In this document: positions 16,980 to 42,290 of the stretch, piece by piece
Layout: each line of letters begins with the position of its first letter
Position numbering within the stretch: the stretch's first letter is position 1
From: Burkholderiales bacterium
Lineage (GTDB): Bacteria; Pseudomonadota; Gammaproteobacteria; Burkholderiales; Burkholderiaceae_C
Assembly: GCA_016000265.1 (NCBI GenBank)
Contig: JAECRL010000001.1
Coordinates: 186,001 to 250,000, forward strand
Direction of reading: 5' to 3'
DNA length: 64,000 nucleotides
Made by a program: the position numbers and the translations under genes
The notes under the pieces: model-generated
The model's input: the letters and a program-made list of their open reading frames with translations, nothing else
What the model was told of the DNA's origin: nothing
Databases searched by the model: none

Positions 16980-18602
16980 TCATGGTGTTGCGGGTTGTGT
17001 TTTTGTGTCGGCTGCGGTTGTGCCGACGGAGACGAAGGCCTCTCGCCTGAAGAGCTGCAACATCGCGTAGATGCTCAGGACGACCAGTGCGTAAAGCACC
17101 CAAGGCTGGAGCGTGCCTCGCGTGATCTGGTTGACCTTGAAGGAAATGGACTCGCCGCCGATGCCGTACAGGTACAGCGGCCACAGCGCACACAGCGCGG
17201 CAGGGCAGATGAAGTGGCCTGCATCGAACCGACCATTGGCGTCCATCAGCACGAAAACCACCGTGATCAACACGAACAGCACGAGCGGGAACCATGCGCC
17301 GAAAACAACGTACATGTCAGCCCAGATGGACCCGGTGGCGAAGCCACCAAAGGCGCCGCCGTGATCGATGAAACGGTAATAGTCACCAGTAGAAAACATG
17401 AAGTCGTTTTTGTTGAATTTGATGCCCAAAGCGTCATACACGTTCTGAGGCAAGATGGCTTTGACCTTGTCGGTCTGGTTGTCGATGAGGCGCAGCCTGT
17501 CTTCTTCGCTGAACAGGCTGCCAAAGTGAATCATGTTGTCGTGAAACTTGGTCTCGGTGAATCGGGCGAACAGCGGGTTGCTCAGGTAGGTTTCGTCGTA
17601 CGTCAAGTTGATGTACGTGCCTCGGCTGGCGTCGCGGTACTGACTGATGCGGGTTTTGTCAAAAAAGATGTCTGCCGTTTCTTTGGCGACTTCGACCGTC
17701 GACGCTGTGTATCGCTTGTCACGCGCAATTTCCATGGCGATGGCCAGGTCTGACATCGCTGGGATGGCGATGGCCGCTGTGAGCGCACCGGCTGCAAGAA
17801 CTTTGAGGGTGCGTTTGGAGACTGCCTCCGCGGTTCGACAGCTTTCGAGGACGAAGAGAAAGGTCAGTTGGATGGGGCCGATGAACAGCATGGACCGGAT
17901 GTTTCGGCTCAGGGCGATGGCGACGATGACCAAGGTGTAAGCGGCCAGCAGCATGTATTGCTTTTTCATGTCGCCATAACCCGGACCGACGATCTTGGCG
18001 TAAATGGGGATCAAGTAAGGAACCCACAGCAGGAACGAGAAGCCCGCGAGGAATTTGCCGCCGGCGTCGCCAAAACTTCCGCCGCCCATGACTGCCGCAA
18101 GGACCCCCAGGGCCGACATGAGCCAGACGGTCATGAGCGTGGGGATGCTGTGGATCTTCAACGGTGACAGCACCTTGACGGCAATCACCTTCGGGATGTT
18201 TGCCAGCGGGGCGAAATTTCTGTAAGTGAAATGCGCCAGCACCACCGTGACATGCACGATGGCCAGCACCCCGAAAGTCAACAGCGGTGAGCGCAGGTAC
18301 TGGACCATCGGCACCCAGTCGAAGGTCTGGAACACCAAGGCCACGAACTGGCTGCTTGCGGTGAAGCCCAGCAGCGTGAACGCCGTCAGCGGTTGCGTGG
18401 TCATCGCGGCACTCAGGCGCAGGTACTGAAGCACCAGGGATGTGCTGGCGACGATGAGGGTGACAGGCAACAGGTTGTCTGTGCTGCTGTCAATCACGCA
18501 CTGGGCGAGCCAGCAGATCAGACACAGTGCTTGCATGCCATTGAGCAGCAAGGACTTGAATGTCAGCTGGCTTTGGCGGCTGGTGGGTGGGTTGGTGTCC
18601 AT
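16980..18602 (-). CDS. Polytopic membrane protein, candidate Wzy EPS polymerase
   Basis: A 540-residue inner-membrane protein with roughly ten hydrophobic helices in its first 310 residues, a large polar loop (about 310-440, including DETYLSNPLFARFTETKFHD and FNKNDFMFSTGDYYRF) and three further C-terminal helices. That layout fits oligosaccharide-repeat-unit polymerases. Sequence similarity in this class is weak, so the assignment rests on topology and on being the only polymerase candidate in module A. The ATG at 18602 is used; in-frame codons upstream overlap the neighbouring gene and encode non-conserved sequence. It starts four bases after the preceding glycosyltransferase stop. Confidence 0.55.
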   Translation of the reverse strand: MDTNPPTSRQSQLTFKSLLLNGMQALCLICWLAQCVIDSSTDNLLPVTLIVASTSLVLQYLRLSAAMTTQPLTAFTLLGFTASSQFVALVFQTFDWVPMVQYLRSPLLTFGVLAIVHVTVVLAHFTYRNFAPLANIPKVIAVKVLSPLKIHSIPTLMTVWLMSALGVLAAVMGGGSFGDAGGKFLAGFSFLLWVPYLIPIYAKIVGPGYGDMKKQYMLLAAYTLVIVAIALSRNIRSMLFIGPIQLTFLFVLESCRTAEAVSKRTLKVLAAGALTAAIAIPAMSDLAIAMEIARDKRYTASTVEVAKETADIFFDKTRISQYRDASRGTYINLTYDETYLSNPLFARFTETKFHDNMIHFGSLFSEEDRLRLIDNQTDKVKAILPQNVYDALGIKFNKNDFMFSTGDYYRFIDHGGAFGGFATGSIWADMYVVFGAWFPLVLFVLITVVFVLMDANGRFDAGHFICPAALCALWPLYLYGIGGESISFKVNQITRGTLQPWVLYALVVLSIYAMLQLFRREAFVSVGTTAADTKTQPATP

Positions 18603-18606
18603 GAGC

Positions 18607-19632
18607 TTAGGCTTGAAGTGCGTGGAGCAACATCTGGGCCATGATGTCCTGGTTGCCATGCCTGTTGCGCAGATACCGTTCGTGTCCACGCGCCGCAACG
18701 GCCATGCGCTTGGGCTCATCGGCCAGCAGTTGCGAGCACATCCGGGCGCACTCGGCGGCATCCGACCAGAACACCGCTTCGACCCCGTCTTCGTACATGG
18801 CCAGGTGCTCGCTGGTGCGTTCTGCGCAGAACAAGGCCCCCAGGGCAGGGATCTCCAGTGAGCGTGTGGTGTGCAGGTCGCGGTTGCCCTTGGACAGCAG
18901 GCCCAGGTTCACCTTCGCGCATTGAATGGCCTTGGCGTAGTCGTCGCCCCCGATGGCGCCGCCCTTCCAATGCGCTTTGAGCTCGCGCCATTCCGGGGCC
19001 TTTTGCCAATGGCTGCCTCGGATGGTCAGTGGCACGCCGCGTTGGATCAGCTCCAGCAGGAAGGGGCCGCGCTCGGGCATCCATGTGCCCAGGAAGAGCA
19101 CATCGCAGTCCCACTTGGCGTGATCTTCGGGGGTGAGGGGGCGGGGTGCGTGCTCCACCTCGTCGGCCGAGCGCCACACGCGCATCATCCGACGTGCGCC
19201 CAGGGCCTTCAGTTCGGGCAGGTTGTCTTCGCGCACCACGGCCACCAGGTCGTAGTGCGGCACGGCTCGGCGGTAGGCCGCAAAGCGCTGCATGTCGCGG
19301 GGGCCGGTGGGGTCGTCGATGTTGTAGTTGATGACCCGTCCGCAATGGCGGCGCAGCACCTTGACGATGGCCGCCGACACCCACTCGCCGTTGTCCACGT
19401 GGCAGAGGTCAAAACGCTGGCCCGAGAGTTGGCGCGACAAGGCCGCAGCCAGGGGCCAGGCCAGCCAGTGGCCGCCTGCGCGCCAGAGGATGCGGTCGAC
19501 CCAGACGGTCTTGGGCAACAAGGGGCGCAGGTCCAAGTGGGTGACCCGATGGCCCAGGCGGCGCAAGGCGTTGGCGCGGTCCAGACAGGTGCCGGAGACG
19601 GGCCCGATGTAGAGGATGTGCAGGGGCGTCAT
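18607..19632 (-). CDS. Glycosyltransferase, CgeB/group-1-like
   Basis: A 341-residue GT-B-like protein. The N-terminal half opens MTPLHILYIGPVSGTCLDRA, and the middle has VINYNIDDPTGPRD followed by YDLVAVVREDNLPELKALGA. The C-terminal half carries VLFLGTWMPERGPFLLELI, NLGLLSKGNRDLHTTRSLEI and PALGALFCAE, the pattern of the glycosyltransferase family that includes CgeB and spore-coat proteins, in which RS/TR-x-x-E-I-P-A-x-G contacts the donor. Its start overlaps the preceding GT4 stop by four bases. It probably adds one sugar of the repeat unit; the specificity is unknown. Confidence 0.7.
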   Translation of the reverse strand: MTPLHILYIGPVSGTCLDRANALRRLGHRVTHLDLRPLLPKTVWVDRILWRAGGHWLAWPLAAALSRQLSGQRFDLCHVDNGEWVSAAIVKVLRRHCGRVINYNIDDPTGPRDMQRFAAYRRAVPHYDLVAVVREDNLPELKALGARRMMRVWRSADEVEHAPRPLTPEDHAKWDCDVLFLGTWMPERGPFLLELIQRGVPLTIRGSHWQKAPEWRELKAHWKGGAIGGDDYAKAIQCAKVNLGLLSKGNRDLHTTRSLEIPALGALFCAERTSEHLAMYEDGVEAVFWSDAAECARMCSQLLADEPKRMAVAARGHERYLRNRHGNQDIMAQMLLHALQA

Positions 19633-20789
19633 GTCGTCAGCAGGCTCTGGTAGATGTGCAGGGCCCGGTCGCCGTAGGCGCGCCAGCCCCCGATGTTGCG
19701 AACCACGCTCTGGGCGGCGTCGGACAGGCGTTGGCGTGTTTCAGGGTCGTCTGCCAGTTGCTGGAGTTGCTCGGCCATGAGGTCGGCGCGACGGATGGGC
19801 AGGATGTAGCCTGCCTCGCCATGCCGGAAGAGGTCGGGCGCTCCTGTGTGTTCGGTGGCGATGACGGGGCAGCCGCACGCCAGGGCCTGAGGGATGACGA
19901 GGCCAAAGCCCTCTTCGATGCTGGGCAGAACCATGACGTGGCTGCGGCTCATGCGCTCGCGCAGGTCTTGCCAGGGCAGGTGGCCCAGCAGCTGGATGCC
20001 TTCTGACCAAAGGCCCAGTGCTTTCATGCGCTCGACCATGCGTGGCGAGAACGCGCCCGCGAAGCTCAAGGACTTGCGCGGGTGCTTGAGGCGTTGAAAC
20101 GCCTGCAGCAGGTAAGGCACGCCTTTGCGGAGGTCGCCCACGCCAACGAAGAGGATGTCAAAACGGTCTGCGGCGGGCTTCGCCGTGGGGCGGAAGGCAT
20201 CGAGGTTGACGCCGTAGCTCAGCCGGTGGACCTTGTGCGCGGGCACGCCTTGCTGAACGAAGCTGCGGGCGCTGAATGAGGAGGGCACGGTGATGGCGTC
20301 GGCCTCGGCGTACTCGGCTTCTTCACGCGCGATGATGCGCGGGTCCGTGGGCATGTAGGGCATGCCCCAGTGCGCGTATTCGTCGCGCAGGAGATCGTCT
20401 TGCGTGCGGATGTGGGTGGAGCCCCGGTCGCACACGTAGCGCGCGCCCATGGCGTGCGCTCGCCGCCCGCTCAGCAGGGACGACGATGACAGGCCGACGA
20501 ACACGTCGCACGCGGGCAGGTGCCGCGCCACATGGCGGTCGAAGCTCACGCAGTTGATGTGTTCCCAGCCGCGAAGCAGGAAGCGCCCCAGGCGCTCGCG
20601 CTGTGGGAAGGCCAGGTAGGGTGTGTTGACCCAGGGGAAGGTGTGGATGCTGCCCGCTGGCAGGTGCTCGCGGCGCAGCTTGTACATGGGGTAGCCCGAG
20701 TACACGGCCTGCAGGGCCTGGCGTGCTGCCAGCTCGCGGGCGAGGTCAAAGGTGTGGAACTTGCCCAGCACCGAAAGCGTGACCTTCAT
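19629..20789 (-). CDS. Glycosyltransferase family 4
   Basis: A 386-residue GT-B enzyme. The start at 20789 (MKVTLSVLGKFHTFDLAREL) overlaps the Wzx stop by four bases; a longer in-frame reading upstream is spurious. The acceptor domain includes FVGLSSSSLLSGRRAHAMGA, and the donor domain has LFVGVGDLRKGVPYLLQAF (213-231) and the signature EEGFGLVIPQALACGCPVIA (292-311). The ending EHTGAPDLFRHG and the final helix are typical. It is part of the translationally coupled run Wzx, GT4, CgeB-like GT. Confidence 0.85.
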   Translation of the reverse strand: MKVTLSVLGKFHTFDLARELAARQALQAVYSGYPMYKLRREHLPAGSIHTFPWVNTPYLAFPQRERLGRFLLRGWEHINCVSFDRHVARHLPACDVFVGLSSSSLLSGRRAHAMGARYVCDRGSTHIRTQDDLLRDEYAHWGMPYMPTDPRIIAREEAEYAEADAITVPSSFSARSFVQQGVPAHKVHRLSYGVNLDAFRPTAKPAADRFDILFVGVGDLRKGVPYLLQAFQRLKHPRKSLSFAGAFSPRMVERMKALGLWSEGIQLLGHLPWQDLRERMSRSHVMVLPSIEEGFGLVIPQALACGCPVIATEHTGAPDLFRHGEAGYILPIRRADLMAEQLQQLADDPETRQRLSDAAQSVVRNIGGWRAYGDRALHIYQSLLTT

Positions 20790-22093
20790 GTGGGTCCGCC
20801 TTGGCGGCGGAAGGCCGCGCCGCTGCGCAGGAAGTCGCGGGCCAGCTTGAGGCACACAACGGCCATCAGCAACTCGGAGGCGAGCATGGCCAGGCACACG
20901 CCCTCGATGCCCATGGGGCCTTGCAGCAGGTAGGCCGCGCCCATGGCAACCACCGCCCCCACCAGCGACCATTGCGCCAGCCCGATGTGCTGGTTGGTGG
21001 ACAGCAGCAGCACGCGGGGCACATGCCAGGTGCCCGCGATGGCGGCGTAGCCCAGCAGGATCAGCATGGGCCAGGCCTGGAAGGGGATCTGCCCGTGTGA
21101 CCACAGCTCCAGCAGCAGCGGTGCAGCGAAGTACAGGATCAGGCTCAGTGCGGCTGATCCTGCCGCACCCAGCATCAGGCTGCGTCGGTAAATGGGGCGA
21201 ACGGCCTCGGTGCCCCCCTTGCCAAACAGGAAGGAGAACTCACCCCACACGGCGTTGGACAGGATGGAGGTGGCTTGCACCGCCACGCGTGCGATGGTGC
21301 GGTAGCTGTTGAAGATGGCGACCACGGCGGGCCCGAAGAAGTGGCCCACCAGCAGCGTGATGCCTTGCAGGCTCAGCGCGCTGGACAAGGGAAACACCAT
21401 GAAGGACAGCGCGGGTTTGAACAGGGACTTGATCTCGTCCATGCTGGCGTGGCGCCAGTGCCAGGTCAGGCCATGGCTGCCTTGGGCAGACACCCCCACC
21501 AGCACCGCGGTGCAGGCCACGCGCACCAGCAGGCCGCCGAGCGCCACCGCGGTGAACGTGCCCGCCAGGTAGAGGCCGGCCATCATGCCGCCCCACTCCA
21601 GCAGGCGCAGCACGTTGCCCAGCATCACGGCCTGCGCAAAGCGCCCGGTGGCGCGGAAGATGGCGTCAGACAGGCCACCGAATTGGGCCACCAGCACGCC
21701 CAGGATGAGCAGGCAGATGGCCATGCGCTGGTCTGCGCTTTGCAGGCTGTCAACGGGGGCAAAGAGGGCCAGGGGCACGCTCAGCAAAACCGCACCACCC
21801 GTCATGGCCAGCACGAACATGAAGGCGCTGTGGAAGAGGCGGTTGGCTTCGACCCGGTCGCCGTGCCCGAGGGCCATGGTCATGCGGTTGCCCGCGGTGG
21901 CGACCATGCCCAGGTCGGTCATCGCCAGGTAGGACGGCATGGCCGACAGCAGCAGCCAGGTGCCGTAGGTGGCCGTGTCCCATTGCTTGAGGAACAGGGG
22001 GAGCGAAAAAATCTGGATGACGATGACGACCGCCTGACCGAACGCGCCTGCGCCCATGGCGGCGACGATCCTCCTCCCCAGTGCACTGCTCAC
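20786..22093 (-). CDS. Wzx-type polysaccharide flippase (MATE/MOP superfamily)
   Basis: A 435-residue protein with about twelve hydrophobic segments in the Wzx arrangement. The start GAGAFGQAVVIVIQIFSLPL is followed by QWDTATYGTWLLLSAMPSYL, and the mid-protein DEIKSLFKPALSFMVFPLSS and FNSYRTIARVAVQATSILSN are characteristic of polysaccharide-biosynthesis MOP transporters. It would move the lipid-linked repeat unit from the cytoplasmic to the periplasmic leaflet for the polymerase. It lies one base below the epsI stop and overlaps the GT4 start. A second, different flippase is encoded in module B. Confidence 0.85.
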   Translation of the reverse strand: MSSALGRRIVAAMGAGAFGQAVVIVIQIFSLPLFLKQWDTATYGTWLLLSAMPSYLAMTDLGMVATAGNRMTMALGHGDRVEANRLFHSAFMFVLAMTGGAVLLSVPLALFAPVDSLQSADQRMAICLLILGVLVAQFGGLSDAIFRATGRFAQAVMLGNVLRLLEWGGMMAGLYLAGTFTAVALGGLLVRVACTAVLVGVSAQGSHGLTWHWRHASMDEIKSLFKPALSFMVFPLSSALSLQGITLLVGHFFGPAVVAIFNSYRTIARVAVQATSILSNAVWGEFSFLFGKGGTEAVRPIYRRSLMLGAAGSAALSLILYFAAPLLLELWSHGQIPFQAWPMLILLGYAAIAGTWHVPRVLLLSTNQHIGLAQWSLVGAVVAMGAAYLLQGPMGIEGVCLAMLASELLMAVVCLKLARDFLRSGAAFRRQGGPT

Positions 22094-22094
22094 A

Positions 22095-22802
22095 TCAGCT
22101 CTCTCGTTTGCCGATCAGGTAGCCGCGTTGTTGGGTGGGCAGCGCGTTGAGGAGGTCGTTGATGAACTGGTCCTGCAGCACGAAGGGGTCGTCCCGGCGG
22201 GTGACCTCGGAGACGCGAATCAGCGTGCCGTCCACCAGGTATCCACGCATGGCCAGCTTGATGCGCTCGACGTTGCGCTCTTTGGAGCCACGCGCCACGG
22301 CATCACCCACGCGGATGAAGTAGGTCAGGGGTTCGTGTCGATCCGTGCCGAGGGTGGTGTTCAGGCGCACCACCTTGAGGTCACCGAAATTCGTGGGCAC
22401 GTTGACGTCGGAGCGCTTTTCGACCCGAAAGCCTTGGGACGGGTAGCACTGATCGGGCGTGTGCAGCTGCGTGTCGTTGGTCTGGTCTCGGCCGTAGGCG
22501 ATGGACAGCATGATGCCGCGGCCTGTTGGCGTGTGCACGAAGGTGCGACTGAAGGTCTGGCTGTAGATGCGGCGCAGGCTTTCTTCCTGCACCGGGTTGA
22601 CCACGCGGCTGCCGGCGTAAGGCACCTCTTGCCACACCCCGAACTGCTTGGGGATGATCTTTTCGTAGTCGGGCTCGCCAGTGTGGTCGGCCCAGTATTG
22701 AGTCGGGCGCAGCGTCTCGGCCAGCACCACCGCTCCCACCATGATGGCGAGGGCGGCCGCGATCACGGCTGGCTTGAGGGTCAGGGGCTTGAAGAAGCTC
22801 AT
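22095..22802 (-). CDS. epsI: Exosortase-associated protein EpsI (module A)
   Basis: A 235-residue protein of the EpsI family (DUF3485), with an N-terminal membrane helix (about 11-29) and a periplasmic domain. The diagnostic motif HTPDQCYPSQGF (114-125) corresponds to the family's H-x-P-[DE]-x-C-Y-x-x-[QG]-G, following IAYGRDQTNDTQ. EpsI proteins accompany EPS-type exosortases and are needed for methanolan export in Methylobacillus; the biochemical role is unclear. Its start overlaps the xrtB stop by four bases. It is clearly paralogous to the EpsI at 30560-31243, which carries HRPEVCYAAQGF at the same place. Confidence 0.9.
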   Translation of the reverse strand: MSFFKPLTLKPAVIAAALAIMVGAVVLAETLRPTQYWADHTGEPDYEKIIPKQFGVWQEVPYAGSRVVNPVQEESLRRIYSQTFSRTFVHTPTGRGIMLSIAYGRDQTNDTQLHTPDQCYPSQGFRVEKRSDVNVPTNFGDLKVVRLNTTLGTDRHEPLTYFIRVGDAVARGSKERNVERIKLAMRGYLVDGTLIRVSEVTRRDDPFVLQDQFINDLLNALPTQQRGYLIGKRES

Positions 22803-23713
22803 GCGGGGGCTCCAGGGGCCGGCTCTTTCGCTGGGAACACCAGGCGCAGCAGGCCGTCGATGGAGATGGTCAGGATCAATGCGATGACGAACAGCACGAG
22901 CCCGGCGAAGCCGTGCAGGTAACCCTGTCCGACCTCATCTCCGAAGTGGTAGGTGATGAGCGCCAGGAACAGCACGCGCAGCATGTTGGCAACGAACGAG
23001 ATGGGCACGATCAGCAGGCCCAGGGTGATGTTGCGCATCAACGAGGTGTGGCGCACCACGTTGAGGTAGAAGATGCCCATGGCTTCGAGCATGAACAGGG
23101 TGCGCATGCCGGCGCAAGCGTCGGCCACCAGCAGCTGGTAGGGGCCGATGGTCAGCACCACGCCGGTGTGGCCGATGGGGTAGCCGAAGTACCAGAGGAT
23201 CTCGGCTGTGGCGATCGAGATGTGGAGCTTGACGAACTGGCTGATCGGGTCGAGCACGAAGCCCGGAATGGGCACCATGAAGAGCAGGAAGAACAGCGGG
23301 AACTTCAGCTTGTTGAGCAGGGGCCAGCCACCGATGAGGGCGACCACGCCGATCAACATCGGGATGAAGGCGAAAACCTCGAAATAAATGATGTTCAGCG
23401 CGCGTCCGGGTGCGTAGAACAGCACGGCCACCACAAACATGACCCAGGCCAGCCAGGTGCCGGGTGCGGTGCCATCGAGCTTGCCGTCGAACTCTTTCCA
23501 GCGCGCGTGCAGCAGCCAGAGGGACAGGCACAACATGATGGGGCCGTGGCTGTGCTCGTCTTTGTTCCACAGGCCTGCGTCGACGTTGAAAAACAGGTCG
23601 TGCAGGGTCAGCGTGAACATGCCCAGCAGCCCGAGGCTGAGGAGCACGACGTCCAGGGGCAGCGGCAGGAAGCCGGCGGCTGCCGGCTTGTGAACATCAC
23701 TCGTGGTAGTCAT
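22799..23713 (-). CDS. xrtB: Exosortase B (module A)
   Basis: A 304-residue polytopic membrane transpeptidase-like protein. The catalytic triad expected of exosortases is present: Cys200 in VADACAGMR, Arg246 in ANMLRV and His267 in YLHGFAG. A charged EHSHGP near residue 53 and MVPIPGF near 146 are also typical. Exosortases recognise C-terminal PEP-CTERM signals and process proteins for surface attachment. The B type occurs in EPS loci, as here next to epsI and Wzx. Its start overlaps the gmd stop by 17 bases. Motif spacing (Cys to Arg 46, Arg to His 21) is identical in the second copy at 29664-30563. Confidence 0.92.
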
Positions 23714-24842
23714 AGGCTTGGAACCCGGCTTGTTTGACCAGGTTGTCCCGTTTGGCTGAGGTGTAGTCGCTGATGACCATTTCCTTGACCAGCTCGGCCA
23801 GGGTGGTTTTCGGGGTCCAGCCCAGCTTGGCCTTGGCCTTGCTCGGGTCGCCCAGCAGGGTTTCGACTTCGGTGGGGCGGTAGTAGCGCGGGTCGACCTT
23901 GACGATGACGTCGCCGACCTGGCAGCTCGCCAGCATCTCGCTTTCGCCCTTGTCGTTGACCACGGGCTCGACCTTGACCACGCGGCCCACTTCGGCTTCG
24001 CCCTCGCCCTCGAAGGCGATGGTGACGCCCAGCTCCTTGGCCGAGAACTCCACGAACTGGCGCACGCTGTACTGCACGCCGGTGGCGATCACGAAGTCAT
24101 CGGCCTGGTCTTGCTGCAGCATCAGCCACTGCATTTCGACGTAGTCGCGGGCGTGGCCCCAGTCGCGCAGGGCGCTCATGTTGCCCAGGTACAGGCAGTC
24201 TTGCAGGCCGAGTGCGATGCGGCTGATGGCGCGCGTGATCTTGCGGGTCACGAAGGTTTCGCCGCGCACCGGGCTCTCGTGGTTGAAGAGGATGCCGTTG
24301 CAGGCGTACATGCCATAGGCCTCGCGGTAGTTCACCGTGATCCAGTAGGCGTACATCTTGGCCACCGCGTAAGGGCTGCGCGGGTAGAAGGGCGTGGTCT
24401 CCTTCTGAGGGATCTCTTGCACCAGGCCGTAGAGCTCGGAGGTGGAGGCCTGGTAGAAGCGGGTCTTCTTCTCCAGGCCCAGGATGCGGATGGCTTCCAG
24501 CAGGCGCAGCGCACCCAGGCCGTCGGCGTTGGCGGTGTACTCGGGCTCTTCGAAGCTCACGCCCACGTGGCTTTGTGCCGCCAGGTTGTAGATCTCGTCG
24601 GGCTGCACCTTTTGAACGATGCGCACCAGCGAAGTCGAGTCCGTGAGGTCACCGTAGTGCAGCACGAAGTTGCGGTTGTCGACGTGCGGGTCCTGGTAGA
24701 GGTGGTCGATGCGGTCGGTGTTGAACAGCGAGGAGCGACGCTTGATGCCGTGGACTTCGTAGCCCTTGTTGAGCAGGAACTCGGCCAGGTAGGCGCCGTC
24801 CTGGCCCGTGACGCCGGTGATCAGTGCAATCTTCTTGGTCAT
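23697..24842 (-). CDS. gmd: GDP-mannose 4,6-dehydratase
   Basis: A 381-residue cytoplasmic short-chain-dehydrogenase-type enzyme that converts GDP-D-mannose to GDP-4-keto-6-deoxy-D-mannose. The NADP-binding GVTGQDG is at 10-16. STSELYG (133-139) and Tyr158-x3-Lys162 in [12 protein letters not shown] form the catalytic set. [20 protein letters not shown] is a Gmd signature. Length and order match the family. An AGGAGAAG ribosome site precedes the ATG. With fcl, 2.4 kb upstream in the same run, it completes GDP-L-fucose synthesis. Confidence 0.97.
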
Positions 24843-24859
24843 TTTTTTACTTCTCCTGG

Positions 24860-25726: not shown

Positions 25727-25752
25727 GTTCTCGCTTGCGTGCGTGAGGGGAC

Positions 25753-28158: not shown

Positions 28159-28370
28159 GTGCGAGTCGAAAGTTGAGCCTGTGCTGCTGTCGGAGGCGTG
28201 CGGCCTCCGGGAGTTCCCGGATCCCACCTGGCCTCCCCCCATGTGAGCGGGTCCCAGCATAGTCCGAAAGGACTGTCGGTCGAGTGTATCGACGGAAGAT
28301 GACACTTCGTCGGCGCCGCGCGGGTGCGCCACACCCAGATCGGGTGGGCCTCACGGCGTGGGTGGCCCGA

Positions 28371-29360: not shown

Positions 29361-29663
29361 TCCACCCACCTCATGGATGTTATGTTGGTTTGTCGACGGT
29401 TTTGCGACAACCTTGAGATTCAGTTTACGGGGCGCGTTCCATGCGAACGTTCAGGGAAAGCCATCGGTCAGGTGACCCACCCCCTTCTTTGAGGGTGGAC
29501 CATTTCACGAACAACGCTCGTTGGTGGGGGAAGTCCCACGAGAGTTCCCCCTGATCAGGGTTTCCCTGTGTGATCCGCTCGCCCGAATACAGGGGGCACC
29601 CAGGGAACTTGTTTCAGGGTGCAAGGCACAATCCAGCCTGTCCACACGATCTGCTGTAGCGCC
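29361..29663. promoter_or_regulatory. Divergent regulatory region between WecG-like and xrtB2
   Basis: A 303-base gap between two divergent transcripts. It contains the inverted repeat TTGTCG-N9-CGACAA (29390-29410), the 12-base palindrome CCCTGATCAGGG (29549-29560), GGTGGACCATTTCACG (29494-29509), which is one base from the GTGA-N6-TCAC core seen at 171-184, and at least seven CAGGG/CCCTG pentamers between about 29450 and 29620. These point to a regulated bidirectional promoter. No -35/-10 pair is clear enough to mark, and no reading frame in the gap looks real. Confidence 0.45.
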
Positions 29664-34177: not shown

Positions 34178-34245
34178 GGGGCGGTGGCGGTTTGCAGCAG
34201 GGCGGTCGTTTGTCTGGCGGTTTGAGGCGTTTGGGGCCGGCCCTG

Positions 34246-35532: not shown

Positions 35533-36485
35533 CGGCCGTGACCGTGGTGATCCCGCTGTACAACAAGGCCGAGACCATCGTGGCGGCGGTCGAGTCGGTG
35601 CGGCGGCAGTCGTTTCAAGACTGGTCGCTGATCGTGGTGGACGATGGCTCGCGCGACGATGGCGCCGCCCGCGTGGAGGCCCTGGGCGACCCCCGCATCC
35701 GCGTCATCCGCCAGGCCAACGCCGGCGTGGCCGCGGCGCGCAACGCAGGGCTGGCGGCCGCCGAGACCGAGTGGGTGGCGCTGCTGGATGCCGACGACCA
35801 CGTGCACCCCGACCACCTGGCGCGCCTGATGGCGCTGGCGCAACGCCACCCGCAGGCGGTGCTGTGCGGAGCCGGCTTCAACTACGTCAACGAGGCCGGC
35901 GAGGTGAGGCCCTCGGCGCTGTCGCCGGCCATCGAGTCGGCCCCCGATGGGCTGTGCCTGCTGCCGGACTTTTTCATGGAGACCCACCTGCACCACATCC
36001 CCTTCAACAGCTCGGCGGTGATGCTGCGCCGCGACGTCGCCCTGCGCGTGGGCGGTTTCCAGCGCGGCGTGGTGGCCGGTGAAGACCTGTTGATGTGGGC
36101 CCGCATGGCCTGCGCCGGGCCGGTGGCGCAGTCGGCGCAGCGCACCTCGTATTACGTGGAGCCGCCGATGAGCGCGGCCTCGCGCGTGAGCGTGATTCGC
36201 CGCCCGCAGCAGCCCGATGTGGTGGGCGCGGCCCTGCGCGAGCTGGTGCAGGCCCACCCCGAGCGGCCCTCCCTGCGGCTCTTCGTGGCCGACTGGCACC
36301 GCATGCGCGGTGTGCTCTTCATGGAGCTCAACGAGCGCGGGGCGGCCGTGCGCGAGTTGCTCACGGCCGTGCGCTGGCACGCCCTCACGCGCAAAGACCT
36401 GATCTGCCTGGCGGCCTTGCTGCTGCCCGCCGGCTGGCGGGCGAACTTGCTGGCCCGCCGCCGAGCGGGCAAGGAAAGCACCTGA
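35529..36485 (+). CDS. Glycosyltransferase family 2
   Basis: A 318-residue GT-A enzyme. VTVVIPLYNKAETIVAAVES (4-23), VVDDGSRDD with Asp38-Asp39, and LLDADDHVHPDH with the metal-binding DADD (87-90) are all present. Around residue 185-200, GEDLLMWARMA supplies the catalytic-base ED motif. The C-terminal 90 residues are helical and Arg-rich. The ATG overlaps the flippase stop. It is the first of three consecutive transferases in module B and probably adds one sugar in the cytoplasm; the donor is unknown. Confidence 0.88.
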   Translation: MTAVTVVIPLYNKAETIVAAVESVRRQSFQDWSLIVVDDGSRDDGAARVEALGDPRIRVIRQANAGVAAARNAGLAAAETEWVALLDADDHVHPDHLARLMALAQRHPQAVLCGAGFNYVNEAGEVRPSALSPAIESAPDGLCLLPDFFMETHLHHIPFNSSAVMLRRDVALRVGGFQRGVVAGEDLLMWARMACAGPVAQSAQRTSYYVEPPMSAASRVSVIRRPQQPDVVGAALRELVQAHPERPSLRLFVADWHRMRGVLFMELNERGAAVRELLTAVRWHALTRKDLICLAALLLPAGWRANLLARRRAGKEST

Positions 36486-36487
36486 AC

Positions 36488-37624
36488 ATGAGCACCACGG
36501 GCTCCTTCGTCGAGCGGCCCATCCGGGTCGCCCTGGTCACCAACATCCCCGCGCCGTATCGGGTGCCGGTCTACGAGCGCCTGGCCCGCATGCCGGGCTG
36601 TGACCTGCACATGATCTTCTGCAGCGGCTCGGAGCCCGATCGCCACTGGCAGATCCAAGCCGGCGATTACCGCAGCACGGCCTTGCGCGAGCGTTTCGTC
36701 ACCGTCAAGGGGCGCTTCATCCACGTCAACCCCGATGTGTGGTCGGTGCTGCAAGCCAGCGACCCGGATGTCGTCATCACCACCGGCTACAACCCCACGC
36801 ACCTGATCGCGTTCGCGTGGGCGGTGTGGCGGGGGCGTGCACACGTGGTCATGACCGACGGCACGCTGCGCTCGGAGGCCACGCTCAGCGGCGCACACCG
36901 CTTCCTGAGGCGCCGCGTGTTCGCGCGCTCGCAGGCCTTCGTGGGGCCCAGCGAAGGGGCGATGGACCTGTTTCGCTCATACGGCTTGCCGGCCGACCGG
37001 CTGTTCAAGTCCCACCTGTGCGCCGACAACGACGCCTTCTTGAGCCTGCCGGATGGCCCCCGACCGCTGGACCTGCTGTTTTGCGGCCGCCTCGTGGCCA
37101 TCAAGAACCCCTTGTTTGCGCTCGACGTGGCCCGCCGCATCAGCGGCCTGCTGGGGCGGCGCGTGAGCCTGGGCTACCTCGGCTCGGGCGAGATGGAGTC
37201 GCAGGTGCGCGAGGCCGCCGCGCGGCTCACCGAGCACGTCGACGTGACCTTCATGGGCTTTGCCCAACCCGCTGAGTTGCCGCAGCGTTATGCGCAGGCG
37301 CGGCTGTTTCTGTTTCCCACCTCCTGGGACCCGTGGGGCGTGGTGGCCAACGAGGCGTGCGCCGCGGGGGTGCCGGTGCTGGTGACGCCGCACGCCGGGG
37401 CCGTGGGTGACCTGGTGATCGACGGCGTCAACGGCCTGGTCTTGCCGCTGGATGCGCACGCCTGGGCAGAGGCGGGGGCCCGCCTGTTGAATGACCCGGT
37501 GGAGTGGGCGCGCCTGTCGGCGGCCGCACGAGCGCGCGTCAAGGGCTTCAGCTACGACGCCGCGGCCCTGGGCTTGTGGCAGGCGGTGCAGCGCGCCATG
37601 GCAGACCGCAAGGAGCAGGCATGA
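36488..37624 (+). CDS. Glycosyltransferase family 4
   Basis: A 378-residue GT-B enzyme. The N-terminal domain opens RVALVTNIPAPYRVPVYERL, which is characteristic of a GT4 subgroup common in EPS loci. The donor domain has LLFCGRLVAIKNPLFALDV (196-214), YLGSGEMESQV (230-240) and SWDPWGVVANEACAAGVPVL (279-298), in which the usual E-x7-E region begins with a DPWG variant. AAGGAAA precedes the ATG at 36488. It overlaps the next GT4 gene by four bases. Specificity is unknown. Confidence 0.87.
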   Translation: MSTTGSFVERPIRVALVTNIPAPYRVPVYERLARMPGCDLHMIFCSGSEPDRHWQIQAGDYRSTALRERFVTVKGRFIHVNPDVWSVLQASDPDVVITTGYNPTHLIAFAWAVWRGRAHVVMTDGTLRSEATLSGAHRFLRRRVFARSQAFVGPSEGAMDLFRSYGLPADRLFKSHLCADNDAFLSLPDGPRPLDLLFCGRLVAIKNPLFALDVARRISGLLGRRVSLGYLGSGEMESQVREAAARLTEHVDVTFMGFAQPAELPQRYAQARLFLFPTSWDPWGVVANEACAAGVPVLVTPHAGAVGDLVIDGVNGLVLPLDAHAWAEAGARLLNDPVEWARLSAAARARVKGFSYDAAALGLWQAVQRAMADRKEQA

Positions 37625-38793
37625 GCGAACGCATGCGCGTGCTGGTGGTGCACAACGCCTACCAGCAGAGGGGGGGGGAGGACGCCGTGGTGGCCTCCGA
37701 GGTGGCGCTGTTGCGCGAGCAGGGCCACGAGGTGAGCCTGCACCTGCGCCACAACGACGACGTCAAGACCGCTTCGCGCGTGGGCGTGGCGCTGCAGGCC
37801 GTGTGGTCGCGCCAGACCGGGCAGGACATCGCCGCCCTGGTGGCAAGCTTTCGCCCGGACGTCATCCACGTTCACAACACGCTGCCGCTGGTCTCGCCCT
37901 CGGTGTTCTGGGCCGCGCGACGAGCCGGTGTGCCGGTGGTGCAGACGCTGCACAACTTCCGCCTGATGTGCCCGCAGGCCATGTTCCTGCGCGAGAGCAA
38001 GCCCTGCGAGGACTGCCTGGGCAAGGTGCCCTGGCGTGGCGTGGTGCGGGGCTGCTATCGGCATTCGGTGGTGCAGACCGGCGTGCTGACGGCCTCGCTG
38101 ATGGCGCACCGCGCCCTGGGCACCTACGAGCGCGCCGTGGACGCTTTCATCGCGCTCAGCGAGTTCTCCAAGAGCAAGTTCGTGGCCGCGGGCATGGAGC
38201 CGGGGCGCATCTTCATCAAGCCCAACTTCGTGGAGGACGCCGGAGACGGCCTGCCCGAGGGGCGCGAGGGCGGGCTGTTCGTGGGCCGCCTGTCGGACGA
38301 GAAGGGCGTGGGGGTGTTGCTGGAGGCTTTGAACCAGGGCGTGCGCGTGGAGCTGATCGGCGAAGGCGAGTGGTTCGAGCGCGCCAAGGTGCAGCTGGGC
38401 CCGCTTGCGCCTGGCTTCCTGCCCATGCCCGCCATCATCGAGAAGATGAAGCGCGCGGCCTTCCTGGTGCTGCCCAGCCTGTGTGGCGAGAACTTCCCGC
38501 GCACCCTGGCCGAGGCCTACAGCTGTGGCCTGCCGGTGATCGCCAGCCGCGTGGGCGCCCTGGCCGAGCTGGTGAAAGACGGGGAGACCGGCCTGCTGTT
38601 CGAGACCGGCAACGCGCAGGACCTGGCGGCCAAGCTGGCCTGGGCCCAGGCGAACCCGCAGGCCATGCGCGAGATGGGGCGCCAGGCCCGCCGGCGCTAT
38701 GAGGCGCTGTACTCGCCGCTCACCAACCACCGGCGTTTGCTGGAGGTGTATGAGGCCGCGAGGGCGGCGCAGGCTGCTCGAACCGCGTCCTGA
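37621..38793 (+). CDS. Glycosyltransferase family 4 with Cys quartet and G9 tract
   Basis: A 390-residue GT-B enzyme. It opens VLVVHNAYQQRGGEDAVVAS and has DVIHVHNTLPLVSPSVFWAA. The donor domain has LFVGRLSDEKGVGVLLEAL and LCGENFPRTLAEAYSCGLPV. Four cysteines (117, 129, 132, 145) cluster in MCPQ...CEDC...GCYR between the domains, a possible metal site or structural loop. A run of nine G (37670-37678) encodes the RGGE motif near the N terminus and could slip. It ends module B, 15 bases before the convergent epsG2 stop, with no terminator visible between them. Confidence 0.87.
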   Translation: MSERMRVLVVHNAYQQRGGEDAVVASEVALLREQGHEVSLHLRHNDDVKTASRVGVALQAVWSRQTGQDIAALVASFRPDVIHVHNTLPLVSPSVFWAARRAGVPVVQTLHNFRLMCPQAMFLRESKPCEDCLGKVPWRGVVRGCYRHSVVQTGVLTASLMAHRALGTYERAVDAFIALSEFSKSKFVAAGMEPGRIFIKPNFVEDAGDGLPEGREGGLFVGRLSDEKGVGVLLEALNQGVRVELIGEGEWFERAKVQLGPLAPGFLPMPAIIEKMKRAAFLVLPSLCGENFPRTLAEAYSCGLPVIASRVGALAELVKDGETGLLFETGNAQDLAAKLAWAQANPQAMREMGRQARRRYEALYSPLTNHRRLLEVYEAARAAQAARTAS

Positions 38794-38808
38794 CCAACTG
38801 ACCCGGAC

Positions 38809-39726
38809 TCAGAACTCGTTCATCACGGAGCCCACCATCTTGGTGGGGCCCATGCTGATGGTGTTGAGCAGGTCTTGCAGGGCGTACATGCGCGTCTTGT
38901 TCTGACGGGCGATGGAGACCGCGGCACCGCAGCGGGCGGCGATGACGGCAAAGTCAGAACCCAGCGTGGCGGCCGGTGTGTCCACGATGACCTGGTCGAA
39001 CTTGGTCAGCAGCTCGCGGATCAGCAGGCCGAAGGCCGGGCGCTCCAGGAGCTCCAGGGGGTTGGGGGGCGTCGGGCCCACCGGCAGCACGAACAGGCTG
39101 GGCAGCTCGCGGATGGGGCAAACCACGTTGCCCGCGGCCCGCCCGGAGAGGATGGACGACAGACCCACGCTCTTGCCTTGCAGTCCGAAGATCTCGTGCA
39201 GGCGCGGGTTGCGCATGTCGGCGTCGATCAGCAGGGTGCGGCCCGAGAGCTGCGAGAACGCCGCGGCCAGGTTGGCGGCGAAGTAGGTTTTGCCGTCGCC
39301 GCTGTCGGGGCTGACCACCGCCAGCGCGCTGCGCGGGCCGTTGTCGGAGTACATGCGCATGATCATGTGGCTGCGCATCGTCCGGAAGGCTTCGGCTTGC
39401 TCGGAGAAGGGCTTGGTCGCCACCACCAGCTCGGCCGGCAGGTGCGAGGTCTGCTCTGCCGCGTAGGGGTAGTGGAACTGCTGGGCCAGCGCCCACAGCA
39501 CGTCGTCGCTGTTGGCCAGGCCCAGCGCCACGGCGGCTTCGCCGAAGCGCACGCCGTTGTCTTTCTGGTAGCTCAGGATCTGCTGGATCTGCTCGGCCGA
39601 CAGGTTGTTGGCCTGGCTGATGATCTCGCCGATGGAGCGTTCGTGCGGCACCTGTTGGGTGTCGGGGAAGTGGGAGTCGCGCGCGTCCATGGTGGAGCTC
39701 TGGAATGCAGGGTTGTTCGAGCCCAT
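38809..39726 (-). CDS. epsG: EPS tyrosine kinase EpsG with MshEN-like domain (module B)
   Basis: A 305-residue BY-kinase paralogous to the module-A EpsG. Walker A SPDSGDGKT (139-147), Walker A' LLIDADMRNPR (165-175) and Walker B VIVDTPA (246-252) are intact. The N-terminal MshEN-like domain covers about 30-88 (SIGEIISQANNLSAEQIQQI, then RFGEAAVALGLANSDDVLWA and LAQQFHYPY). It ends VMNEF without a tyrosine cluster. It starts on the stop of epsF2 (TGATG), so the two are translationally coupled. It probably phosphorylates EpsF or itself to control polymer length and export. Confidence 0.88.
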   Translation of the reverse strand: MGSNNPAFQSSTMDARDSHFPDTQQVPHERSIGEIISQANNLSAEQIQQILSYQKDNGVRFGEAAVALGLANSDDVLWALAQQFHYPYAAEQTSHLPAELVVATKPFSEQAEAFRTMRSHMIMRMYSDNGPRSALAVVSPDSGDGKTYFAANLAAAFSQLSGRTLLIDADMRNPRLHEIFGLQGKSVGLSSILSGRAAGNVVCPIRELPSLFVLPVGPTPPNPLELLERPAFGLLIRELLTKFDQVIVDTPAATLGSDFAVIAARCGAAVSIARQNKTRMYALQDLLNTISMGPTKMVGSVMNEF

Positions 39727-41195
39727 CAGGAATCGCTCCGTCCGGTGGAGAGGGCGGTGCCACCGCCCAGGGAAGATCCGGCCAGGGCCAGGCCCGAGCC
39801 ACCGCGCACGGTGGCCGTGCGCAGGCCCAGGCGGCGGCGCCAGCTCTTGCTGACGGGGCCGGGCATCACGCCCACGATGGGGATGCCAGCGCCTTGCAGC
39901 AGGTCTTGCGTGCCGCGGATGCGGCGGTCGAAGAGCTCGACGGCCAGGGTCACGAGGATGGCCAGCAGCGTGCCCACCGACATGGCCAGCAGCAGGGCCA
40001 GCGTGATGCGGGGGAAGACGTGTTTGCTGGGCTCGGTGGCCGCGCTCACCAGCACGATGTTGTTCTGGGTGTTGTTGCTCTCCAGGCCCATCTGGCTGAG
40101 GCGCGCCTGGATGGCTTCATAGACGCGCTGGGCGCTTTCGACTTCACGCTCCAGCACCGACAGCTCGGTGCGAGCGTCCTTGAGTGCCAGGACCTTGTCG
40201 CGCTGCTCTTCGTAGGCGATCTTGGCCTGGGCCTGACGCGAAGCGGTGATGGTGTCGTTGATGCCCAGGCTGCTGGTCACGCGGTTGGTTTCGGTGCGCA
40301 GGCGGGTGCGCAGGCTGTCGACGGTGGCGCGCGCTTCGATGAGCAGCGGGTGGGCGTCTCCGTAGCGGGCTTCGAGCTCTTCCATGCGGGCTTCGGAGCG
40401 GGTCAGCTCGGCCTTGATGCTGGTGATCAGGCCGTTGTTGAGCACGTCGGCGACCTGGTCGGAGCTCTTGCGGGCGGCGGCCGAGCGGCTGTTGGAGTCG
40501 GCCGCGGTGGCGCGCAGGGCCACGATCTGGGCAGACAGGTCGTTGAGTCGGGCGGCCTCGGCGTCCAGGCGCTCGTCGGTCACGACGATGCCGCGCTCTT
40601 TCTGGGCCTGGGCCAGTTTGACCTGGGCGGCTTCGAGTTTGTCTCGAGCCAGGCGGGCGCGCTCTTCGAAGAAAGAGTAGTACTGCCGCGCCGGGTCGAC
40701 GCGGAACTGCACGCTGGAGTCCATGTAGGCCTTGGCGAAGGCGTTGGACAACACGGCGGCGAATTGCGGCTCGGGCGAGGAGTAAGAGATGTCGATGATG
40801 TTCGACTCGCGCGAGGGCTTGACGTCCAGGCCGCCGCTGATGAACTCACCGAGCCAGGTGATGTAGTCACCCTTGCCCTTGGTGGCCTTTTCCCACTGCT
40901 TGCGCAGCTGCGGGTTCTGGTCCATGCCCAGCTGGCGAACCACGCGGGCGGCCACGCTCGGGCTGGTGATGATGTCGATCTGCGTGGCCATCAGGACGGG
41001 CGAGGTGGCCGCGCCCATGCCGGACATGCCGGCAACGGGGTCGGGCTTGAGGTCCACCATCACGGAGGCGGTGGCCTTGTAGCTCTTGGGCAAGACAAGA
41101 CAGACGACCAACGTGATGAGAACCAGGGTCGTCACCACGCTCAGCGCGAGCAGCCAACGGGCCCTCAGAACTCTGAAAAACTGGTCGAACGTCAT
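39726..41195 (-). CDS. epsF: Chain-length determinant EpsF (module B)
   Basis: A 489-residue PCP-2a-type inner-membrane protein. Helix 1 lies at about 14-36, a coiled-coil periplasmic domain at about 37-400 and helix 2 at about 402-427. The cytoplasmic tail (RRRLGLRTATVRGG...) ends in a Gly/Ser-rich segment absent from the module-A EpsF. AGGAG precedes the ATG at 41195. It shares the start pattern F[DE]Q(L/F)-x-x-VLRARW with the module-A copy and is similar throughout. It works with EpsG2, and epsD lies just upstream on the same strand. Confidence 0.9.
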   Translation of the reverse strand: MTFDQFFRVLRARWLLALSVVTTLVLITLVVCLVLPKSYKATASVMVDLKPDPVAGMSGMGAATSPVLMATQIDIITSPSVAARVVRQLGMDQNPQLRKQWEKATKGKGDYITWLGEFISGGLDVKPSRESNIIDISYSSPEPQFAAVLSNAFAKAYMDSSVQFRVDPARQYYSFFEERARLARDKLEAAQVKLAQAQKERGIVVTDERLDAEAARLNDLSAQIVALRATAADSNSRSAAARKSSDQVADVLNNGLITSIKAELTRSEARMEELEARYGDAHPLLIEARATVDSLRTRLRTETNRVTSSLGINDTITASRQAQAKIAYEEQRDKVLALKDARTELSVLEREVESAQRVYEAIQARLSQMGLESNNTQNNIVLVSAATEPSKHVFPRITLALLLAMSVGTLLAILVTLAVELFDRRIRGTQDLLQGAGIPIVGVMPGPVSKSWRRRLGLRTATVRGGSGLALAGSSLGGGTALSTGRSDS

Positions 41196-41249
41196 TCAAT
41201 GCACTCCTGCTGGCATGCCGACACGGCACGCCCCTTCCTGGAACAGCTT

Positions 41250-41278
41250 CGTGACCCGCGGGTGCGGGTCACGTTTTT
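41250..41278 (+). terminator. Nine-pair hairpin with T-run between epsD and epsF2
   Basis: CGTGACCCG (41250-41258) pairs perfectly with CGGGTCACG (41265-41273) and is followed on the plus strand by TTTTT (41274-41278), a textbook terminator shape. Both flanking genes run on the minus strand, where the hairpin has no T-run after it. It could stop antisense transcription arriving from the left, or act in the minus-strand mRNA as an RNA-stabilising or attenuating element between epsD and epsF2. Confidence 0.5.
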
Positions 41279-41282
41279 GGGG

Positions 41283-42290
41283 TCACTTCAGACCCGACAG
41301 GCCTTTGCTCAGCGCGGCGGGATCGAGGGCCGGGGCCGAAGCCGCGTCCGCTGCCGAAGCCGTCAGCGAGGGAGCCGATGCCACGCTCGAAGCGGCGGCG
41401 GCACCCGAGGCGGGCTTCTCGGCGAACTTGCCGATGTACTCGATCTTGGCGGCTGCGCGCAGGTTCTTCATTTCCTTCTGGGCGAATTCGCGACGACGCT
41501 CCACGGTCAGGAACTGTTCGATGGCCGGCTTGGCCTGCTCGAACGTCACAGGCTGCTCCTTGCTGGCCACGATCAGGATGGCCTTGAAGCCGTCTTTCGC
41601 GGTGATGAACAGGGACTGACCGTCGTTGACCTTCAGGAGTTGGTCCACGATGGCCAGGGGCAGGCTTTCGGCCGCCTGGGTCACTTGCTGCGTGTTGAAC
41701 TTCAGGCCCGCGGCCTTGATCACCTCTGCGTATTCGGCAGGGGTGCGCTTGTTCTTGAGGAGCTCGATCACTTCTTTGGTCTGCTCGGGCGTGCCGGGCA
41801 CCGTGAACTCTTGCAGGGCGTAGACCTTGCGCTGCGCGAACAGGGCGGGTTTGGTGTCGAAGTACTTGCGCAGGTCTTCAGGCGTGGGGGTGCCGGCGCC
41901 CGCGACCGAGGCCTTCTCCAGGTAGGAGCGCGCCAGGATGTTGCGGCGGGTGGACTCCAGCAGCTGCATGACCTGCGGGTCGCGGTCGAGCTTTTGCTCT
42001 TCGGCCTTGGCCACGGCCAGTTGCTGGTCGATCAGGCCTTCGAGGATCTGGCGGCTGGCGGCGTCGGCCTGCTCGGGGCGAAGGCCTTGCTGGCGCTCCA
42101 GGATCTGGTTGATCTGGTGAACGGTGATTTCGCTGTCGTTGACGCGGACGGCCGACTGGCTGGCCTTGGCCTCGGGCTTGTCGGACTTCTCGCCGCAGCC
42201 TGCGGCCAGGGCGGCGGCGATGACGACGGGCAGCAGGGCCATCATGCGGATGGCGCGCGGTTGGGCGGAGGCGTGCAGGCGGTTGTGCAT
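41283..42290 (-). CDS. epsD: EpsD-family peptidyl-prolyl cis-trans isomerase lipoprotein
   Basis: A 335-residue exported lipoprotein with lipobox LAAGC (Cys32). It has a SurA/PrsA-like chaperone domain (about 45-115, VRVNDSEITVHQINQILERQ) followed by a rotamase-like region (about 130-245) and a low-complexity Ala/Ser-rich tail. EpsD proteins accompany EPS export in exosortase-containing loci and are thought to help fold the outer-membrane channel. Only one copy occurs in the window, upstream of epsF2-epsG2. An internal Met16 is an alternative start. The 110 bases upstream, to the rhombosortase stop at 42401, show no clear promoter. Confidence 0.85.
   Translation of the reverse strand: MHNRLHASAQPRAIRMMALLPVVIAAALAAGCGEKSDKPEAKASQSAVRVNDSEITVHQINQILERQQGLRPEQADAASRQILEGLIDQQLAVAKAEEQKLDRDPQVMQLLESTRRNILARSYLEKASVAGAGTPTPEDLRKYFDTKPALFAQRKVYALQEFTVPGTPEQTKEVIELLKNKRTPAEYAEVIKAAGLKFNTQQVTQAAESLPLAIVDQLLKVNDGQSLFITAKDGFKAILIVASKEQPVTFEQAKPAIEQFLTVERRREFAQKEMKNLRAAAKIEYIGKFAEKPASGAAAASSVASAPSLTASAADAASAPALDPAALSKGLSGLK

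Follow-up and report, generated by a model that had tools for sequence, protein, structure and literature searches.

Two exosortase B modules of separate lineage in an Aquabacterium exopolysaccharide locus, with a likely role in two polymers

Why are exosortases encoded within polysaccharide loci, and to what are the PEP-CTERM proteins joined? We addressed this question in a locus that holds two exosortase B (XrtB) genes. It lies in the window, by which we mean the whole 64,000-nucleotide stretch analysed (positions 186001-250000 of contig C6 in G000, a 3.56-Mb, 18-contig genome of the genus Aquabacterium). XrtB1 (22799..23713, minus strand) and XrtB2 (29664..30563, plus strand) each adjoin their own epsI, coding for EpsI1 (22095..22802, minus) and EpsI2 (30560..31243, plus). 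A sequence-only reading of this DNA had described two exosortase B/EpsI modules, two EpsF-EpsG pairs and one epsD, and had suggested that two polymers, or one polymer in two forms, each depend on a dedicated XrtB/EpsI pair. We asked whether the two sets are duplicates, how widely such sets recur and what they share.

Separate descent of the two sets

All four exosortase and EpsI genes are where that reading had placed them, and all exceed curated cut-offs. XrtB1 scored 290.9 bits and XrtB2 321.9 bits with TIGR03113 (cut-off 275; XrtB2 scanned from a longer start at 29619), and EpsI1 and EpsI2, both B-type, scored 220.4 and 250.9 bits with NF045609 (cut-off 220; EpsI2 scanned within a longer open reading frame, ORF). 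The two EpsF-EpsG pairs are also present: the chain-length proteins EpsF1 (25753..27180, minus) and EpsF2 (39726..41195, minus) reach 458.9 and 463.6 bits with TIGR03017 (cut-off 422.75), and the bacterial tyrosine kinases EpsG1 (24860..25756, minus) and EpsG2 (38809..39726, minus) reach 273.4 and 273.8 bits with TIGR03029, under its cut-off of 313.8 yet by far their best family. A single EpsD, a peptidyl-prolyl isomerase-family protein, was found in the locus (41283..42290, minus; TIGR02925 190.5 bits, cut-off 108.9); a second epsD in the genome adjoins a third exosortase.

The two window copies are 42% identical in XrtB (38-42% depending on the alignment), 34% in EpsI, 40% in EpsF and 52% in EpsG. 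The GT4-family glycosyltransferases (GTs) and flippases compared between module I, which holds XrtB1, and module II, which holds XrtB2, are 27-31% identical. We built a FastTree tree of 157 XrtBs, with the outgroup halved, and a careful tree of 49 chosen rows, on which the approximately unbiased (AU) test was also run. The genus set comprised 108 rows from 38 genomes (G300:C26, G306:C57, G314:C380, G330:C1:1221202, G334:C241, G318:C65 and G319:C42 were left out). Aquabacterium XrtBs form four clades, I (with XrtB1), II (with XrtB2), III and P; 4 more rows belong to none of them. In the careful tree each of the four is one clade with a support of 100/96 to 100/100. Lineage I lies across a 94/91 branch from the others, in the company of rows that belong to Methylophilaceae, to Rhodocyclaceae, to the own family and to others. 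The AU test rejected a clade of I and II (p 0.0015) and one of I, II and III (p 0.005). Lineages II and III are sisters with a support of 92 in the FastTree tree; the careful tree does not resolve this grouping, and the AU test does not reject it (p 0.37). The tree comparison that the sequence-only reading had called for thus puts the window's XrtB copies in different clades, and a recent duplication of XrtB1 and XrtB2 is rejected by their identity, by the separate clades and by the AU test.

That reading had also named two outcomes that would speak against it, catalytic residues lost in one copy and near-identical copies, and we found neither. The catalytic Cys, Arg and His are intact in both window proteins (Cys194/Arg240/His261 in XrtB2) and, over the genus, Cys and Arg are conserved in 108/108 XrtBs and His in 107/108 (the remaining row has an X). 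The identical motif spacing that it had pointed out (Cys-Arg 46, Arg-His 21) is present but is shared by 108/108 Aquabacterium XrtBs. It is thus a family constant and no mark of the window pair, and we rejected it as evidence of kinship.

A near-identical tandem XrtB pair was seen in another locus, L083 (4800-7530), where one copy is short and without the conserved positions, and where EpsI, EpsF and EpsG are single. Judged by sequence, L083 has the appearance of a recent duplicate, and the window pair does not resemble it.

A genus-wide modular system

We wondered how common such pairs are. In a sample of 299 genomes of the own family, 100 had an XrtB match at E <= 1e-20, 4 from the own genus and 96 others. 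Each of these 4 had a pair of XrtBs no more than 30 kb apart on a single contig. Two whole XrtBs within 30 kb were found in 0/96 of the other XrtB-positive genomes sampled, among which fragmentation (G074 and others) could hide pairs; an apparent pair in G185 is one gene in two pieces. In a sample of 399 genomes of the order, 77 had a match at E <= 1e-40 and, the own genome apart, 0/76 had two within 30 kb, the closest approach being 45 kb (G667). A search of 42 Aquabacterium genomes found an XrtB match at E <= 1e-15 in 41, over the cut-off in 39, and two exopolysaccharide (EPS)-type XrtBs (I, II, III or other) lay within 30 kb in 21 of the 42. Among the 38 genomes that could be typed, 30 carried at least two EPS-type XrtBs. 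Over the genus there are 19 rows of type I, 31 of type II and 31 of type III, and 23 loci of type P. Multiple XrtB modules are a trait of the genus Aquabacterium, in which three EPS-linked lineages (I, II and III) and an EPS-free lineage P recur. The two sets described from the window alone are thus real, but they are no singular oddity: they belong to a modular system that extends over the genus and comprises as many as three EPS-linked lineages of XrtB.

The pairs have a recurrent geometry. Lineages I and II lie within 30 kb of one another in five genomes (G000, G033, G299, G302 and G303), 5.9-7.7 kb apart and always divergent. Lineages II and III do so in 15 genomes, in 13 of which they are divergent at 2.0-8.6 kb. 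Lineage II thus faces I or III over a short divergent stretch. A I/III pair within 30 kb was found in one genome (G324), and G159 carries lineages I, III and II inside ~55 kb, all three accompanied by their EpsI, EpsF and EpsG.

We then scored the neighbours of each XrtB, counting any homologue within 8 kb and labelling it by its best match among the window proteins, so that an EpsF1 or EpsG1 label is not itself a lineage; some stretches were shortened by contig ends. Type I XrtBs were accompanied by EpsI1 in 19/19 cases, by the GT4 and the GT that follow Wzx1 in the window in 18/19 each, by an EpsG1-like gene in 17/19, an EpsF1-like gene in 16/19, Pol1 in 12/19 and Wzx1 in 9/19. A Pol1 homologue was found near 0/31 type II and 0/31 type III XrtBs. 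The distance from type I to type II is 5.9-7.7 kb, 42-50 kb or 253 kb, or the two are on separate contigs, and the content of module I stays much alike. Module I is thus a stable unit whether in the locus or far from it, a finding more in keeping with two polymers than with a single polymer in two forms. The type II cassette varies, with Wzx2 homologues at 7/31 loci and Wzy2 homologues at 2/31, the window being one of the two.

Do EpsI, EpsF and EpsG follow their own XrtB? For the trees of these proteins, rows were labelled by the nearest same-strand XrtB within 6 kb. In the EpsI tree the 19 type I rows form one clade (99), as do the 23 type P rows (100), and the labels change 3 times, the minimum for four labels. 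In the EpsF and EpsG trees they change 3 times against a minimum of 2. The 16 type I EpsFs group in one clade that also takes in an unlabelled row. The same holds for 16 of the 17 type I EpsGs; the remaining one, from G324, sits between two XrtBs. The window's EpsG2 groups with eight other unlabelled rows, beside three type II rows. Mantel correlations of type I EpsI were 0.83 with its own XrtB_I (n=17) and 0.33 with XrtB_II (partial 0.81). Type II EpsI gave 0.85 against its own XrtB versus 0.22 against type I (n=16), and 0.89 versus 0.53 against type III (n=22). For type III, own and other XrtB gave 0.83 versus 0.41 with EpsI (n=21), 0.76 versus 0.39 with EpsF (n=13) and 0.88 versus 0.46 with EpsG (n=11). 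For EpsF and EpsG of type II, only 2 pairs could be formed. EpsI thus follows its own XrtB more than its neighbour's, and dedicated XrtB-EpsI pairs are well supported for types I-III. Dedicated EpsF and EpsG are supported clearly in type III and, by clade, in type I.

Gene content and parts encoded elsewhere

The family-model scan covered the window up to 50.6 kb, with Pfam alone at 0.3-11.8 kb. Two gene runs diverge from a 294-bp intergenic region (29370..29663), so that co-regulation is possible. The leftward run (13.7-29.4 kb, minus strand) begins with a WecG/TagA/CpsF-family glycosyltransferase (28485..29369; TIGR00696 182 bits, cut-off 69) and the GDP-L-fucose synthase Fcl (27229..28332; NF047922 517 bits, cut-off 500; the match begins at residue 62 and the start is probably nearer 28150). 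EpsF1 and EpsG1 come next, then the GDP-mannose 4,6-dehydratase Gmd (23697..24842; TIGR01472 593 bits, cut-off 415), XrtB1 and EpsI1. They are followed by Wzx1, the candidate flippase of module I (20786..22093; NF041503 35.5 bits, under the cut-off of 300), a GT4 (19629..20789, the likely start being 20789; PF00534 112 bits), a Glyco_trans_1_2 GT (18607..19632; PF13524 74.4 bits) and the polytopic membrane protein Pol1, the candidate polymerase of module I (16980..18602, with the likely start at 18602, not 18761). A GT2 (15996..16829; PF00535 52.0 bits), a WcaI-family GT4 (14744..15991; NF007640 562 bits, cut-off 276) and, at the left end of module I, a GT9-like glycosyltransferase (13664..14737; PF01075 36.2 bits, with a 43% homologue in G033) complete the run.

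The rightward run (29.7-38.8 kb, plus strand) consists of XrtB2, EpsI2, the polymerase Wzy2 (31288..32430; Wzy_C PF04932 40.0 bits, cut-off 31.7), a glycoside-hydrolase-like protein (32387..34177; PF02449 19.8 and PF11790 18.7 bits, each slightly under its cut-off), the flippase Wzx2 (34246..35532), a GT2 (35520..36485, start approximate; PF00535 113.5 bits) and two GT4s (an ORF at 36095..37624 whose real start is probably ~36490, PF00534 79.9 bits; and 37504..38793, PF00534 92.0 bits). Past 38.8 kb the genes run leftward again, with EpsG2, EpsF2 and EpsD, then a rhombosortase-like gene and glnE. The listed ORF starts were too long for Pol1, for the GT4 at 19629 and for Wzx2.

The two flippases and two polymerase candidates of the sequence-only reading are firmer in module II. 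The structural model of Wzx2 (predicted local distance difference test, pLDDT, 87.4) resembles WzxE (Foldseek against the PDB; best match 9g9o, E 5.1e-7), and Wzy2 reaches Wzy_C. Together with EpsF2 these would be parts of a Wzx/Wzy-type assembly. On the module I side Wzx1 has the sub-cut-off match alone and Pol1 is unmatched, and the exporter is unlinked to either module. Pol1 is conserved and polytopic and is possibly an undescribed polymerase family.

We also noted other features of the locus. The N termini of EpsG1 and EpsG2 match an MshE-like cyclic di-GMP motif (NF053729 39.9 and 35.6 bits, cut-off 38). Gmd has two copies in G033 (L059/L060) and in G299 (L182), one by each XrtB module and ~96% identical to the window Gmd; since the exosortases differ widely, this suggests sharing or conversion of sugar-nucleotide genes. 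The rhombosortase-like gene between epsD and glnE (42401-43108, minus; TIGR03902 67.9 bits, under the cut-off of 84) is at the same place in several genus loci, where two C-terminal sorting systems adjoin. To the left of module I (295-10745) are a pectate-lyase-like protein, two acyltransferases, a hexapeptide protein and a GDSL-like protein, and the EPS region may reach the window's left end. Sigma-54 control of the locus was rejected: sigma-54-like sites number 4 in the window versus 9.9 expected, with none within 1 mismatch in 29370..29663.

Where are the exporter and the initiating transferase? A search of the own genome found no EpsE or Bac_transf match in the window. On contig 3, an EpsE over its cut-off has a GGDEF-EAL protein next to it; contig 9 carries a WcaJ-type transferase beside an EpsL homologue (TIGR03014 123.5 bits, under the cut-off of 275). 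Over the genus, EpsE is single in 38/42 genomes (of the other four, G318 gives two partial matches, and no match was found in G309, G314 or G334), and EpsF has two or more matches, some of them fragments, in 36/42. By the listed positions EpsE adjoins an EpsF only in G310 and in G316, which has the canonical order EpsE-EpsF-EpsG-XrtB-EpsI. The EpsE exporter and initiation are presumably common to both modules.

Substrates, rival readings and known systems

PEP-CTERM proteins were matched in 42/42 genus genomes, with 6-62 matches each at E <= 0.001 and 29 in the own genome. We read 19 tails of the own genome, from the 20 best-scoring of 42 matched loci, a choice that favours the consensus: 18 are VPEP and 1 is LPEP, so that separate tail classes for XrtB1 and XrtB2 were not found among them. 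The number of PEP-CTERM matches correlates with genome size (Spearman 0.76) and with the count of EPS-type XrtBs (0.38). The idea that more exosortases bring more PEP-CTERM proteins is thus weak, genome size explaining more.

Lineage P is different. Its member in the own genome, the third exosortase (locus L027:12075-16153, contig 9), is fused to an EpsI domain, scores 260.1 bits with TIGR03113 (under the 275 cut-off) and adjoins EpsD and two FxDxF-type PEP-CTERM proteins (72.0 bits, over the cut-off of 50, and 42.3 bits, under it). Within 8 kb, lineage P loci have EpsD in 23/23 and EpsF or EpsG in 0/23. A PEP-CTERM-like tail is encoded upstream in 23/23, picked by eye from regular-expression hits in a look run on type P only; in 22/23 it is of the A-P-E-[PA]-[AS]-[DE] type, six having A for the second P (PEA). 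A stricter filter, which recovered 19/20 known loci, found tails within 6 kb of 17/23 P, 1/19 I, 3/31 II and 3/31 III XrtBs, several of those near type III visibly not being PEP tails. This adjacency is most simply read as lineage P serving the PEP-CTERM protein encoded beside it. Since type P has its own EpsD and PEP-CTERM-like protein in 23/23 loci, the scattered VPEP-type proteins probably form a common pool served by the EPS-linked XrtBs. Seven genomes of at least 97% completeness, with XrtBs all of I-III and no lineage P found (G301, G302, G303, G307, G324, G332 and G335), hold 39, 45, 37, 13, 17, 28 and 38 PEP-CTERM matches, respectively.

Taken together, these results lead us to favour, with moderate confidence, two independently inherited, co-located Wzx/Wzy-type modules, likely for two polymers, that keep separate exosortases and share an exporter. 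Sequence, synteny and trees show that each module supplies its own GTs, flippase and polymerase candidates (Pol1 being no more than a candidate), EpsF, EpsG kinase and XrtB-EpsI pair. WcaJ-type initiation, with the neighbouring EpsL homologue, and exit through EpsE are encoded elsewhere and would be common to both. The scattered PEP-CTERM proteins would be exported by Sec and retained by their C-terminal helix; the Cys of XrtB1 or XrtB2 would cleave the PEP motif, and the cleaved protein would be linked, with help from EpsI, to an acceptor that is part of the polymer of that module or is released together with it. The lineage P exosortase would act on its own adjacent protein. PMC1569441 reports that disruption of epsH in Methylobacillus sp. 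12S left methanolan production unaffected, which makes coupling or attachment of PEP-CTERM proteins to polymer a likelier role for XrtB-EpsI than polymer synthesis. The separate lineages and co-inherited XrtB-EpsI pairs of the sequence-only proposal therefore stand; a dependence of the polymer on the exosortase does not have such support.

That spared methanolan production is one of several points that weigh against the two-module account. Pol1 has no Pfam or NCBIfam match, and its model (pLDDT 81.6) has 0 PDB fold matches at E <= 0.001, so that it stays a polymerase candidate by position and topology. Across the genus loci, neighbourhood does not make clear-cut which module owns Gmd, Fcl and WecG. 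The EpsIs of type III do not form one clade but a grade made up of several groups. For type I, Mantel values with own XrtB_I versus XrtB_II are near equal for EpsF (0.50 vs 0.54, n=15) and EpsG (0.59 vs 0.51, n=15), a weak link to their own XrtB. Full sharing of initiation and exit is less than certain, given a second Bac_transf gene at C6:71149 and, on contig 7, EpsE-like and EpsF-like matches that are weak (43.8 and 51.9 bits, respectively); exporters of other, general families may also exist. No PEP-CTERM match was found in the window even at E <= 10, and the tails are alike, so that sequence assigns no substrate to XrtB1 or XrtB2. Finally, the exosortase family PF09721 was searched in the own genome alone, and relatives may hold other exosortase families.

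Could both sets build one polymer? It might be made in two forms, or one repeat unit might be built by both sets (for example by growth condition), with length or attachment adjusted by the second XrtB-EpsI and EpsF-EpsG. WecG, Fcl and Gmd are single across the window's two sets, the gene runs diverge from one region and EpsE is single in most genus genomes, all as this would have it. However, a separate polymerase candidate and flippase candidate are present on each side, the GT4s and flippases compared are as dissimilar as given above, many genomes have module I at a distance from module II or on a different contig, and the type II GT cassette varies while that of type I is much alike. We consider a single polymer quite unlikely. 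Still more improbable, to our mind, is that one exosortase or module is a redundant or decaying remnant. The tandem copy in L083, with its one EpsI, indicates that decay does occur, but both window copies and nearly all genus XrtBs keep their catalytic residues, and lineages I, II and III are maintained across the genus.

The exosortases might also be mere passengers of EPS genes by history, all acting on the same proteins without polymer specificity. The uniformity of the VPEP tails among those read agrees with this, as does a PEP-CTERM number that tracks genome size above EPS-type XrtB count. However, EpsI in types I-III, and EpsF and EpsG in type III, follow their own XrtB above the neighbour's, and a type I EpsI accompanies every type I XrtB wherever the module lies; we regard the passenger reading as unlikely. 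A more specific form of the two-module account is that exosortases are specialised for polymer and not for tail: XrtB1-EpsI1 and XrtB2-EpsI2 would share the VPEP pool and join it to different acceptors, exosortase number would follow polymer number, and lineage P would be a one-substrate exception. We put this forward tentatively, as a somewhat doubtful extension.

What follows for exosortases in general? The number of exosortases in a genome need not equal the number of sorting specificities, and for Aquabacterium it is too simple to assume a single EPS operon model for each species. A genus with natural sets of one, two and three EPS-linked exosortases, a single EpsE, and an EPS-free exosortase with its own substrate makes the question of the acceptor testable.

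Action of exosortases on PEP-CTERM proteins is proposed in PMC1569441 and PMC12188702, the latter suggesting a possible link to polymer. The floc systems of Aquincola and Zoogloea and the Nostoc exosortase CrtB resemble our proposal in that PEP-CTERM proteins or an exosortase are needed to hold polymer at the cell (PMC9850573, PMC12188702). An Aquincola rpoN1 mutant makes polymer and releases most of it, according to PMC9850573, and Nostoc CrtB is described as the sole exosortase of its host; these systems differ from ours in that the published text available has no multi-module arrangement. In a literature search that reached few subscription journals, we found no work on Aquabacterium exosortases or on several exosortase modules arranged in this way in one genome, no use of the term 'xrtb' in the papers listed and, by title, no Aquabacterium exopolysaccharide gene-cluster paper on this locus. 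The terms 'exosortase B' and 'EpsI' co-occur in a Janthinobacterium paper (PMC9860564), as a term match only.

The single-set XrtB loci of other Betaproteobacteria are alike in content: among 80 named loci (of at most 21 kb), XrtB in most cases has EpsI, EpsF and EpsG in its company, frequently together with EpsD, all of the same families. They differ in number, two XrtBs being present only in five Aquabacterium loci (L073, L075, L077, L078 and L079) and, as a decaying tandem copy, in L083. The names EpsD, EpsF and EpsG are used for the methanolan locus too, and a methanolan-type eps locus is characterised by one XrtB-EpsI-EpsF-EpsG set with EpsE within it. In Methylobacillus sp. 12S, as in our window, EpsI is directly downstream of the exosortase, there EpsH, inside a large EPS locus (PMC1569441). 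Unlike a methanolan-type locus, the window carries two unrelated sets, with no Bac_transf match among them, and the genome has EpsE on contig 3 and EpsL on contig 9.

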